Assembly: GCA_001788395.1 (NCBI GenBank)
Contig: MGBT01000074.1
Location: forward strand, 16,197 to 52,915
Length of the DNA stretch: 36,719 bases
Direction: 5' to 3'
From: Candidatus Rokubacteria bacterium GWA2_70_23
GTDB taxonomy: Bacteria > Methylomirabilota > Methylomirabilia > Rokubacteriales > CSP1-6
In this document: in pieces, positions 16,875-20,749 of the stretch
Position numbering within the stretch: position 1 is the stretch's first letter
Layout of the letters: each line of letters begins with the position of its first letter
The notes under the pieces: generated by a model
What the model saw: the letters and a program-made list of their open reading frames with translations, nothing else
Databases searched by the model: none
Told to the model about the DNA's origin: nothing
Translations under genes and position numbers: made by a program

Positions 16875-16990
16875 GCCGGGCGTCGGCGCCGGGGCGAGAG
16901 CGCCTGCGCCATCCGGCGGAGGTCGTGGGTGCGGAAGATGACGAACCAGCGCTGGTCGGGGCTGAAGCCGATCTGATAGGGATCGCTCAC
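16871..16990 (-). CDS. Small protein, 39 aa, unknown
   Basis: This short gene starts with GTG 16990, overlapping the stop of the CusF-like gene (GTGA), and ends at TGA 16871, overlapping the ATG of the 32-aa gene (ATGA). The product begins MSDPYQIGFSPDQRWFVIFR, continues with THDLRRMAQALS and ends in a basic PRRRRPA tail. No signal or TM segment is seen, so it is probably cytoplasmic. It is aromatic-rich and basic-tailed and could bind a membrane partner or nucleic acid. No family is recognised. Confidence 0.58.
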   Translation of the reverse strand: MSDPYQIGFSPDQRWFVIFRTHDLRRMAQALSPRRRRPA

Positions 16991-17364
16991 ATCTTCCCCT
17001 GCGTCGTCATCTCGGTGATCGTCATTCTCGGCGGGATGCCCCTGAGCGTGAACCGCACGAGGTCGCCGATCCCTGTCGCAGCGAGCAGCTGCGGGTCCTG
17101 AATCTGGAAGCCCATGGTCATGGAGGGCATGAAGCCGGCGATGTCATCGTGGGTGAGGATGACGACGTTCAGCTCGGGGAGCAGCCCGCGCACCACGCCC
17201 TGGCCCGTGAAGACCTGCTCCACCCCCGGAAAGGCGCCGCGCTGGCGGGAGAGCGCCAGCGCTTCCTCGAGGCGCGGGATCTGCCGGCCCCAGGCGAGGT
17301 AGCCGAGAAAGAGCCCGGCGGCGAGCGCCAGGTTCACGAGGAGCACAACCCGCCAGAGCCTCAT
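16987..17364 (-). CDS. CusF-like copper-binding protein, membrane-anchored
   Basis: This 125-aa protein has an N-terminal TM anchor (residues 4-25). The rest is an extracytoplasmic domain of the CusF/copper-binding OB fold: TGQGVVRGLLPELNVVILTH, then IAGFMPSMTM and GDLVRFTL. In CusF-type domains the His and the MPSMTM methionines (79-84) bind Cu(I) or Ag(I). The same domain often accompanies SCO or copper efflux proteins. ATG 17364 lies 13 nt after the upstream stop with GAGG before it. A longer start at 17388 (133 aa, overlapping the upstream gene by 11 bp) is possible. It follows a CopD fusion gene, in line with copper handling. Confidence 0.78.
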   Translation of the reverse strand: MRLWRVVLLVNLALAAGLFLGYLAWGRQIPRLEEALALSRQRGAFPGVEQVFTGQGVVRGLLPELNVVILTHDDIAGFMPSMTMGFQIQDPQLLAATGIGDLVRFTLRGIPPRMTITEMTTQGKM

Positions 17365-17377
17365 CGAGTGTCCGGCC

Positions 17378-19396
17378 TCAGTGGACATGCTCGGCCGGCG
17401 GCGGCGCCGGCCTCTCGAGGGTGAGCCGCCCGAGCTCGGCGAGGATGGCGGCGGGATCCGACCAGCCGGGGGCCGCCCCTCCGGGGATCCAGCGCGCGCG
17501 GAGATACCCCTGGCGGTCGATCAGGAGCTCCATGTGCTCGGGCATCGGCGGGTCGGGGCGGAGACCATCGGGCAACAGGGTAACCCGGAAGAGGCCATAG
17601 GTCCGCGCGATCTCCTCGCTGCCCTCGGTCACCACGGGAAGGAGGATCGGGGGGGGTCCTCCGAGGCGTCTGATGATCCTGGCGCCGCCGTCCAGCGGGA
17701 CCGCGAGGATCTCGCCGCCCAGCGCCCGCAGCGTCTCGTAGGTCCGCCCCAGCCGCGCGAGCCGGTCTCGAGAGCTCGGAAGGCTGAAGAATACGAGGAG
17801 TACGGCCCGCTGCCCTCGAAACTCCTTGAGGGCCCGACCCGGCCCTGGACCAGCGGAGTAGCTGAAGTCGGGAGCGACGATCCGGGGCCGGTCGGGCTCC
17901 ACCGCCGAGCCGAGCCCGCGCGCCTGCGCGGATGAGGCGAGGGAGCGCAGGAAGTTGACCACATCCCAGCGTTCCTCGGCGCCGAGCTTTTCGGCGAAGC
18001 CCGGCATGCCGCCCCGGGGGATGCCGTGGGTGAGCCACCAGAAGATGTCGCCCGCCGTGTGCTCGGCCGTGTGAGGCCCAGTGAGGTCGGCCGGCTTCCT
18101 GGGGAGCCCCGATCCACGCGGACCGTCGCCCAGCCCGGCCGCCCCGTGGCATTCCGCGCAATGCTCTCTGTAGAGCGCCATGCCCCTGGTCACCGAGCCC
18201 GCGTGGTAGGTCGCGGCCGGACGGCGGTACGTGGATGGATAGGCGTCCACGGTCATGGGCGGCAGGGCGAGGAGGAGCCCTGCAGCTATGGCCGCTGCGC
18301 CTGCGCCGAGCACCAGGCCCCGGCGCCTCCTGAGCAGCGCACCCGTGACCACTGCCAGCAGGCCCACCACGGCGACCTGGCTGCCGACGAGCACGCGTGG
18401 CTGAAGGCCGGCGGGGCCGACGGCGACGTTGTACGAGAAGCGGAACGACAGCGGCCACGACGGGCTCTCGTGTCGCGCCGGCGGGGTGACGGTGAGGACG
18501 CTGACGACCACCAGGGCCAGCGCACCGAGCACCCACTCGATGGCCACCAGCCTGCCGAGCCGCGCCATGGCGGGGCGGCCCACCTCGGCGGCATCGCCGG
18601 AAAGGGCCGGAAGCAGCCGCCGGCTCCGGCTCGCCACGATGAGAACGGCGAGCACGAGGACGATCTTGAGGAGCAGCAGCCGGCCATAGCGGGTGCCCAC
18701 GAGGGCCGGCACGCCGCCCACCTGGCTCCACGAGTTTCCGATGCCGGTGGCGCCGAGCAGCAGCATCGCGGCCAGCGCGATGCCGGAGAAGCGACGGACA
18801 GCGACGACGGCCTCGGGCCGGCTGTCGGCCCCAGCCTCGCGCGAGGCGGAGCGGAGCAGGAGGCTCAGGGGCAGAAGGGTGCCGAGCCAGGCGCCCGCGG
18901 CGATCAGGTGGGTCGCGTCCGCCAGCGCGGCCCAGAGCGCTCCGGGCTCCACCGCGGCGGCATGGCCCGCCCAGCCGAGCGCCGCCAGCGCCGCCGCGCC
19001 CAGCAGCCACGACTCGATCCGGAGCGCGGCCCAGTCGGCAGTCGACTCCTCGCGCTCGCGCAGGAGCGCGAGAGCCGCGAGCAGGAGGAGCAGCACGTGG
19101 CGGAAGAGCCAGACCGCGCCCCAGCGGGTCTCGAGCAGCACGCCGAGCCACGCGGCGAGCTCGAGGGCGGCAGCGGGCCGTCCGGCGAGGTGAGCCGACT
19201 GATGCGCCACGAGCAGCAGGCCCGAGAGGAGCGCGAGCCCGGCCAGCCGCCGCGCCCAGCGGCCGAGGCCCTCGTCCCAGGCGCGCGCCATGGGACGCAG
19301 GCGCGGCCCCGCGAGCAGGGAGGCCGTGAAGAGCCCGATGAGGAGGATGCCCGCGAGGAGATTGATCCAGCGCAGGCCAGCGCCCAGGGCGGTCAT
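17378..19396 (-). CDS. CopD copper-import domain - cytochrome c - thioredoxin-fold triple fusion
   Basis: This 672-aa protein has three modules. Residues 1-380 are a CopD-like copper resistance/import region with about eight to nine TM helices and His/Trp-rich segments (VAHQSAHLAG, ADATHLIAAGAWLG). Residues 395-490 are a class I cytochrome c domain with heme site C413-A-E-C-H417 and probable axial M464 (MPGF). Residues 500-660 resemble a redoxin/SCO-type thioredoxin fold (LLVFFSLP, ILAVPLDG, HMELLIDRQGYLRARW), but the CxxC position reads SLPSS (538-542), with no cysteine. The two C-terminal modules would be periplasmic. ATG 19396 directly follows a palindromic promoter; no ribosome site is seen. 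It heads an 11-gene run. Confidence 0.85.
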   Translation of the reverse strand: MTALGAGLRWINLLAGILLIGLFTASLLAGPRLRPMARAWDEGLGRWARRLAGLALLSGLLLVAHQSAHLAGRPAAALELAAWLGVLLETRWGAVWLFRHVLLLLLAALALLREREESTADWAALRIESWLLGAAALAALGWAGHAAAVEPGALWAALADATHLIAAGAWLGTLLPLSLLLRSASREAGADSRPEAVVAVRRFSGIALAAMLLLGATGIGNSWSQVGGVPALVGTRYGRLLLLKIVLVLAVLIVASRSRRLLPALSGDAAEVGRPAMARLGRLVAIEWVLGALALVVVSVLTVTPPARHESPSWPLSFRFSYNVAVGPAGLQPRVLVGSQVAVVGLLAVVTGALLRRRRGLVLGAGAAAIAAGLLLALPPMTVDAYPSTYRRPAATYHAGSVTRGMALYREHCAECHGAAGLGDGPRGSGLPRKPADLTGPHTAEHTAGDIFWWLTHGIPRGGMPGFAEKLGAEERWDVVNFLRSLASSAQARGLGSAVEPDRPRIVAPDFSYSAGPGPGRALKEFRGQRAVLLVFFSLPSSRDRLARLGRTYETLRALGGEILAVPLDGGARIIRRLGGPPPILLPVVTEGSEEIARTYGLFRVTLLPDGLRPDPPMPEHMELLIDRQGYLRARWIPGGAAPGWSDPAAILAELGRLTLERPAPPPAEHVH

Positions 19397-19420
19397 GGCG
19401 TTCCATTATAATGGAGCGCC
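19397..19420. promoter_or_regulatory. Palindromic divergent promoter with symmetric -10 boxes
   Basis: The entire 24-bp space between two divergent ATG codons is a palindrome with 11 of 12 base pairs matching; its core is TCCATTATAATGGA. TATAAT on the plus strand is 19407-19412, and TATAAT on the minus strand is 19410-19405. Each ends 8 nt before its ATG. Transcription would therefore start at or next to the start codon of each gene (leaderless), and neither gene has a Shine-Dalgarno. The dyad could also be a repressor or metal-regulator operator that shuts both promoters. The geometry is seen directly; the regulatory role is inferred. Confidence 0.65.
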
Positions 19421-20182
19421 ATGCGACGCTCACGGCCGCTCCGGGCCATCATCTTCGACGCGGGCAACACGCTCGTGCGGATGAACTATGGCGCCATCGC
19501 GGAGCAGCTGCGGGCGCGGGGACACCGTGTGAGCTTCGCGGCCGTGGAAGAGGCGGAGCTGCGCGCGCGCGTGCGGCTCGACGTGCACCTGGGGCCGGGG
19601 GCGCGCACCGACAGCGGCACGATGGAGCGCGCCTCCACCGAGAGCCGGACCACTCACGGCCGCTATCTCCGCTACATCCTCGAGCCCCTCGGGATCACCG
19701 GCGAGCCGGAGATCGAGGAGATCGCGCGGTGGCGGCGGGGCTACAACCTGCCGGTGGGGCTCTGGAACGTGGCCGATCCGGGCGCCGAGGCTGCGCTCCG
19801 GCGCGTCAAGGGGGCGGGGCTCGTGGCGGGCGTCATCTCCAACTCCAACGGGTCGGTGCGCTCGATCCTCGAGGCCACGGGGCTTGCCGCGCACCTCGAC
19901 TTCATCATCGACTCGGCCGTGGTGGGGGTGGAGAAGCCCGATCCGCGCATCTTCCGCATCGCTCTCGCCGAGGCCGGCGTCGCGCCGGACGAGGCCGTCT
20001 ATGTGGGCGACCTCTACTCCGTGGACGTGCTGGGAGCGCGCAGCGCGGAGATGGCGGCCGTGCTTCTCGATCCGCGCGGCTTCTGGGGCGAGCGCGACTG
20101 TCCGCTGGCCCCGGACCTGGCGGCGGCCGTCCGGCTCGGTCTCGACGCGCGCCGCCCGGCCGGGCGCACGTCAGGATTGTGA
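19421..20182 (+). CDS. HAD-superfamily hydrolase
   Basis: This 253-aa haloacid dehalogenase-like protein has motif I FDAGNTL (nucleophile D13), a helical cap, motif II VISNSNGS, motif III lysine in VEKPDPRIF and motif IV YVGDLYSVDV. The second acidic residue of the classic DxD is Gly15, as in the FDAGGTL subgroup. This makes ordinary phosphatase general-acid chemistry less certain. It is cytoplasmic and of normal length. The start ATG 19421 lies immediately after a palindromic promoter. The frame ATG 19411 in another register has no HAD homology. It is divergent from the copper/zinc gene run, so it may share its control. Confidence 0.85.
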   Translation: MRRSRPLRAIIFDAGNTLVRMNYGAIAEQLRARGHRVSFAAVEEAELRARVRLDVHLGPGARTDSGTMERASTESRTTHGRYLRYILEPLGITGEPEIEEIARWRRGYNLPVGLWNVADPGAEAALRRVKGAGLVAGVISNSNGSVRSILEATGLAAHLDFIIDSAVVGVEKPDPRIFRIALAEAGVAPDEAVYVGDLYSVDVLGARSAEMAAVLLDPRGFWGERDCPLAPDLAAAVRLGLDARRPAGRTSGL

Positions 20183-20390: not shown

Positions 20391-20687
20391 TCACACGGCT
20401 GGCAGCCGCCCGCCATGCCGGAGAAGGCGCTTTATGGCGCTTGCGCGCTGGCCGGCGAGCTGGGTGCCGTGGCGCGCGACGATCTGCTCGAGCTTCTCGG
20501 GCGTCAGGTCGAGCTGGGCGAGATGCCGGCGGCAGAACGGGCAGTGGAGCCCGCGGTAGAGCCCGAGGAACACGGGCGTCCGCCCGCGGTAGTCCGCAAG
20601 CCCGACGACGCCGTCGCGATTGACCGAGGGAAGACTGAAGTCCGGCGCGGGGTCTCCGACGTCGACGGCGGGTGTTCGGGTGACCAT
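20391..20687 (-). pseudogene. Truncated peroxiredoxin (AhpC/TSA family)
   Basis: The frame starts MVTRTPAVDVGDPAPDFSLP and continues through GLADYRGRTPVFLGLYRGLH to CPFCRRHLAQLDLTPEKL. This matches the N-terminal half of a peroxiredoxin-like thioredoxin fold with a CPFC active site. After EKLEQ, near residue 66, the similarity ends. The final 30 residues (VARHGTQLAGQRASAIKRLL onward) are unlike the family, and the frame stops at 98 aa instead of about 180-200. The missing second half contains the resolving strand and cis-Pro, so activity is doubtful. An in-frame start 15 codons upstream is possible. It is divergent from the aconitase X genes. Confidence 0.6.
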
Positions 20688-20749
20688 GAGCCATGCTCCG
20701 GTCTGCCGGCGTCCGTGTCCATCCGAGGGCATGCTACGATGAGCGGCCC

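Follow-up and report, generated by a model that had tools for sequence, protein, structure and literature searches.

The window, by which we mean the whole 36,719-nt stretch of DNA that was analysed, contains a copD-like gene on the minus strand and a HAD hydrolase gene on the plus strand that diverge from a gap of only 24 bp (19397-19420; GGCGTTCCATTATAATGGAGCGCC). The copD-like gene (17378-19396, minus strand) encodes a protein of 672 aa in which Pfam recognises CopD and cytochrome c domains and, more weakly, an AhpC/TSA-like C-terminus; its match to the NCBIfam model copper_CopD scored 145 bits, under the cut-off of 195. A protein that joins these three regions is an unusual-looking fusion. 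The 3' end of copD is overlapped by a gene for a CusF-like small protein (16987-17388, minus strand; Pfam), which is probably carried on the same transcript. On the other side of the gap, the HAD-IA hydrolase gene (19421-20182, plus strand; Pfam and NCBIfam) encodes 253 aa, and beyond it lies a short AhpC/TSA-like ORF (20391-20732, minus strand) that is seemingly truncated and matches just the first half of the Pfam model. Much of the family retains copD and HAD as a divergent pair, frequently with additional sequence between the two genes.

The putative shared promoter and the intergenic region are one and the same 24-bp near-perfect dyad. Complementary bases occupy 11 of its 12 pairs, and 14 of 15 when both start codons are included (19394-19423), where the symmetry ends. 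At the core is the palindromic octamer ATTATAAT, which carries two TATAAT elements on opposite strands, one at 19407-19412 (plus strand), 8 nt before the HAD ATG at 19421, and one at 19410-19405 (minus strand), 8 nt before the copD ATG at 19396. Both boxes are perfect and overlap by 4 bp, as opposite -10 elements do in bidirectional promoters, and on each strand the TANNNT box falls within the ~6-9 nt before the start codon that marks leaderless promoters. The HAD element is separated from its ATG by the discriminator GGAGCGCC (19413-19420, plus strand) and the copD element by the discriminator GGAACGCC (19397-19404, minus strand). A first-pass annotation of this DNA had reported the 24-bp dyad and the overlapping boxes, each 8 nt from its own ATG, and a fresh reading of the sequence agrees with it on both. 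Its remark that such AT-rich DNA is rare also holds. In a genome of about 70% GC (366-kb sample), ATTATAAT occurs twice in 4.65 Mb, and the 14-mer core TCCATTATAATGGA is found a single time with up to 2 mismatches allowed, and once in the window with up to 3.

The bare dyad is not extreme in the window, where 24-bp dyads with no loop and 11 or more of 12 pairs occur three times; 20 first-order Markov shuffles gave 0.45 on average. The two further examples, each of 11/12 pairs, lie at window positions 19 and 30813 and are possibly terminators. The arms of the dyad, GGAACGCC and GGAGCGCC, are alike at 7 of 8 positions, a match equalled by 57 of 44,850 random pairs (0.13%) of start-upstream octamers from a sample of 21 stretches, although this figure carries a selection effect, the site having been chosen for its palindromy. 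With spacers of 15-19 nt allowed, the best match to a TTGACA box at the site is 2/6 on the plus strand and 3/6 on the minus strand.

A distance of 7 nt from the box places the predicted starts at C19419 and C19398, 2 nt before each ATG and 21 bp apart. At 9 nt the start would fall on the A of the ATG on both strands, and the two starts would then be 25 bp apart. The earlier claim that a start about 7 nt past the -10 box lands on the start codon is thus 2 nt short at that distance and holds at 9 nt only. A fair prediction is a leader of 0-2 nt for both mRNAs. The start base at the usual 7-nt distance is a C rather than an A, which counts against the explanation that we favour below.

Leaderless spacing in the source genome and its family

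A 366-kb sample of the source genome supplied 126 promoter-proximal-like starts, upstream of which we collected TAnnnT boxes with at least 5/6 identity to TATAAT and spacers of 0-39 nt. For six of the seven boxes the spacer to the start is 7-9 nt; two of these six belong to the 19397-19420 site itself, and none of the 174 operon-internal-like starts in the same sample has such a box at 7-9 nt. Genome-wide, the pattern TATAATN{2,25}ATG gave 32 matches, against 5 for the reversed pattern, and spacers of 6-11 nt account for 20 of the 32. Judged from these counts, leaderless spacing is normal in the source genome.

The two genes show the same preference across the family. A TAnnnT box stands 6-9 nt before the HAD gene in 24 of 48 scorable loci (48 of 50 were scored, two being dropped by a rule on match start or upstream length) and before copD in 16 of 34, with sharp spacing peaks at 6-8 nt for both. 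Many of the HAD loci that lack a box have, by eye, a start that abuts the end of the upstream gene, where a promoter is not expected. Both genes have a box at 6-9 nt in six loci (L002, L021, L024, L025, L029 and L031), in which overlaps and distances vary. These spacing statistics in genome and family support the earlier proposal of two leaderless mRNAs from divergent overlapping promoters, except for its strict zero leader, in place of which the sequence predicts 0-2 nt.

In two loci of genus g9 (L058 in G053 and L064 in G030), no RTG codon could be located close to where HAD begins. An ATT stands there 6 nt after a TATACT, which suggests that HAD may have a leaderless ATT start codon in these loci.

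The octamer and the general architecture across genomes

In 57 genomes of the family, ATTATAAT occurs at 72 sites, compared with 22 for its reverse, TAATATTA. Among 119 RTG codons located 0-19 nt from the 72 sites, 78 have a distance of 6-11 nt, and distances of 4-5 nt do not occur. An RTG codon at 4-11 nt on both sides is present at 20 of the 72 sites and at 1 of the 22 control sites. By gene content, the copD-HAD pair and further HAD-linked loci are among the 20 two-sided sites. The 20 also include a pair present in three genomes of g18, another present in three genomes of g23, a single pair each in G004, G007 and G009, and five sites of g9. At L079, the sole g9 site of which the second side was read, the second-side ORF has just 41 aa and that side is probably spurious. 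A neutral home-made start caller counts against the two-sided reading, with leaderless-like starts on both sides at 4 of the 72 octamer sites and on at least one side at 27 of 72; this caller often put starts inside the opposite gene and is little trusted.

At the octamer sites of genus g9 (L076-L080, L088-L090 and L107), ATTATAAT stands 7 nt from the GTG of a transporter-like gene. Several of these sites also have a gene of 429-434 aa on the other strand, with its start 47-230 nt away. These sites probably combine one octamer with one leaderless and one leadered mRNA.

A more general form of the architecture, CAYN{6,9}ANTATANTN{6,9}RTG (CAY-6/9 nt-AnTATAnT-6/9 nt-RTG), was matched 100 times in the 57 family genomes, in 38 of which it occurs; the reversed control was matched 7 times. 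In both these and the octamer counts, orthologous sites recur and a few sites are entered twice. Of 20 sites that were fetched, 12 are flanked by coding-like ORFs on either side; about 2 would be expected given that a single random RTG passes at 33% and pairs at about 11%; the 20 were hand-chosen from the roughly 100, among the matches listed, to favour different contigs. A second such site in the source genome (C181:1010-1036, L263; CACCCGCGTAGTATAATCCGCGCCGTG) is flanked by ORFs of 501 and 168 codons, both with GTG starts. By eye, these two ORFs resemble an FAD-linked oxidase and a thioredoxin-like exported protein.

Enrichment of the architecture was absent from 11 unrelated genomes (31 matches against 33 for the control, summed) and slight or absent in 38 genomes from other families of the class (42 against 30). 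A related geometry in which the boxes overlap by 2 bp, CAYN{6,8}ANNNTANNNTN{6,8}RTG, showed a real, weaker enrichment in the 57 genomes (633 against 372), and its matches include the copD-HAD pair of G013. Over 69 sides, the mean best match to a -35 box was 2.23, compared with 2.37 after shuffling, and thus gave no -35 signal.

The copD-HAD gap in the closest relative

Within the genus, G002 is the only other genome with the copD-HAD pair, and both of its proteins are about 80% identical to those of the source genome (G000). The pair was not found in G001, the third genome of the genus, which is 87% complete. The copD half of the site, GGCGCTCCATTATAAT, is kept in G002, including the -10 element and its 8-nt spacing. 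G002 keeps GGCGCTCCATTATAATG, which is followed by AGGGGCGCGAAAGCCC ahead of the HAD ATG, and box and ATG are 17 nt apart; the G000 gap is 27 bp shorter than that of G002. In this one close relative with the pair, leaderless spacing is therefore retained for copD (8 nt) and changed for HAD (17 nt). The prediction that the dyad would be conserved in a relative with the same gene pair holds for the shared -10 core and the copD spacing and fails for the outer dyad, as the HAD-side (right) arm differs in G002.

Discussion

We propose that the 24-bp gap is a complete bidirectional promoter for the housekeeping sigma factor, giving two leaderless or nearly leaderless mRNAs. From the sequence evidence we assign this reading a probability of roughly 0.78. 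RNA polymerase carrying the housekeeping sigma factor would bind ATTATAAT in either orientation, one molecule at a time, and would melt the same AT-rich octamer whichever way it was bound. Initiation some 7-9 nt to the right would yield the HAD mRNA, and initiation 7-9 nt to the left the copD mRNA. With starts on the start codons or at most 2 nt from them, both mRNAs would be leaderless or nearly so and would be translated without a Shine-Dalgarno site. A recognisable -35 box is absent. The HAD element draws on its sequence and on the spacing peak in genome and family, and the copD element on the retention of box and spacing in G002. Transcription from the gap, the positions of its starts, mutual exclusion of the two polymerases and translation of leaderless mRNAs are what we infer from the observed sequence, its spacing and the family-wide statistics.

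It is unlikely that only copD is driven from the gap, with the HAD-side TATAAT a by-product of the symmetry of the -10 element and HAD transcribed weakly or from elsewhere. The relative G002, in which the copD half is conserved and the HAD half is not, lends this account some weight, as do published bidirectional promoters, which are described as often yielding a non-coding RNA on one side (PMC10268837), yet the HAD-strand box of G000 is a 6/6 match and the HAD genes of the family have their own TAnnnT at 6-9 nt in the 24 of 48 loci noted above. Furthermore, no operon can carry HAD, because the next gene upstream is divergent.

A near-perfect 24-bp dyad next to a copper-protein gene, with an arm match reached by 0.13% of random pairs, could also be an operator at which a dimeric metal regulator, such as Fur, Zur, CsoR or one like them, covers both promoters. 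The first-pass annotation had raised this idea in supposing that one bound regulator, or one polymerase, could exclude the other. We regard it as quite improbable, because the arms are not conserved and the 14-mer is single-copy: TCCATTATAATGGA has its one genomic site at up to 2 mismatches and one in the window at up to 3, and G002 retains one arm only. Nor do other promoters of this kind carry symmetric arms. Among the matches listed, core-side arm identity of at least 5/6 was seen at 2 of 62 family sites, as many as the null of 2.6% predicts. For these 62 listed sites the mean arm identity, out of 6, was 2.31 on the core side and 2.53 on the start side, compared with 2.02 and 2.20 for mismatched pairs. 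Arm symmetry across family promoters is thus a slight trend at most and no general feature. The other family gene pairs that were read do not, by eye, resemble metal genes. A metal-regulator operator was accordingly rejected as a candidate on the sequence tests of regulon copies, arm conservation and arm symmetry.

The remaining alternative, that both genes are transcribed from promoters within neighbouring coding sequence and the gap is a chance palindrome, can find encouragement in the two other dyads of equal quality in the window, but is very improbable given that the exact spacing of the site coincides with the genome- and family-wide peak and that matches to the full architecture outnumber those to its control by 100 to 7.

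Within the bidirectional promoter that we favour, the outer arms are unneeded and are either chance or a mutational relic. From the octamer towards HAD, the next 11 nt in G000 (GGAGCGCCATG) make up discriminator and start codon, and they match the reverse complement of G002's copD-side arm exactly; the discriminator GGAGCGCC alone is identical to the copD-side discriminator of G002. On the HAD side, ATTATAATGAG is common to G002 and the more distant G004, and this resemblance suggests that G000 has the derived form. The HAD-side arm of G000 may then have arisen by inverted copying of the start region on the copD side, a possibility that we hold tentatively and somewhat short of even odds, as it concerns a single event, one weak outgroup and a site selected for its symmetry. 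A mutational origin would nevertheless fit the arms better than an operator does.

A broader and more doubtful hypothesis joins these strands. At tens of loci, the 8-bp palindrome of the family might supply two genes with all of their promoter and 5'-end signal, dispensing with -35 box, leader and Shine-Dalgarno site and forcing the two genes to alternate. The palindromic -10 element might, in addition, serve as a hinge for template switching, such that one mutation at the present locus turned a leadered HAD into the second leaderless gene by way of an inverted copy.

The strongest point of a shared -10 element with two leaderless mRNAs is its recurrence across the family. If real, it would be about the smallest control region that two genes can share, and competition between polymerases could be tested on it without interfering leaders or -35 boxes. 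Gene callers that rely on Shine-Dalgarno sites would be expected to misplace starts in this family, and a sequence rule would be available for finding more sites of the same kind.

Recent work by Warman, Grainger and colleagues described bidirectional promoters in which -10 elements on opposite strands share bases, starts are 7-25 bp apart and the position is often between two genes (PMC12825309, PMC10268837). The overlapping opposite -10 elements at 19397-19420 are of this type. The commonest distances between starts in that work are 18, 10 and 23 bp; here, 21 bp is predicted from the 4-bp overlap, or 25 bp if both starts are at the ATG. Polymerase bound one way at a shared -10 element is reported to exclude sterically the polymerase facing the other way, with basal activity usually too low for this competition to matter (PMC12825309). 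This exclusion agrees with the first-pass suggestion that one polymerase could exclude the other. The present site differs in that neither mRNA is predicted to have a leader, and the word "leaderless" is absent from the main text of both papers.

Similarly, leaderless promoters with a TANNNT or TATAAT box a few nt before the start codon have been described by Zheng 2011 (PMC3160421), by Cortes 2013 (PMC3898074) and in Deinococcus-Thermus (2025; PMC12340547). The signature of a -10 element near the start is reported from other phyla as well (Zheng 2011, PMC3160421), and the leaderless promoters of M. tuberculosis are described as having no conserved -35 element. The arrangement of -10 element and start codon at the copD/HAD site is the same. 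In the passages drawn on here, these papers treat one gene per promoter; "bidirectional" occurs in none of the three main texts and "divergent" is missing from two. Closely juxtaposed divergent promoters are reported to be common in M. tuberculosis (Cortes 2013, PMC3898074), where the divergent genes Rv1129c and Rv1130 (prpD) are both mapped as leaderless with starts at 1254510 and 1254630 (PMC3898074). These starts are 120 bp apart and the two genes therefore share no -10 element, unlike the copD/HAD site.

Template switching at quasipalindromes is likewise described as improving or creating dyads by inverted copying in one step (PMC7202029, PMC8604942, PMC8794818). This process would fit the arms of G000, where the copy would include a start codon and a discriminator.

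By its sequence, the copD/HAD site sides with bidirectional promoters in the overlap of its boxes and with leaderless TANNNT promoters in their distance from the ATG. In titles, abstract openings and selected passages of the literature, we met no case in which two leaderless mRNAs are described as arising from a single shared -10 element, nor, within the same scope, any lineage described as having such elements commonly. The bidirectional promoter and the leaderless mRNA are both familiar by themselves; as far as those portions of the literature extend, their union in one shared -10 element is apparently new.
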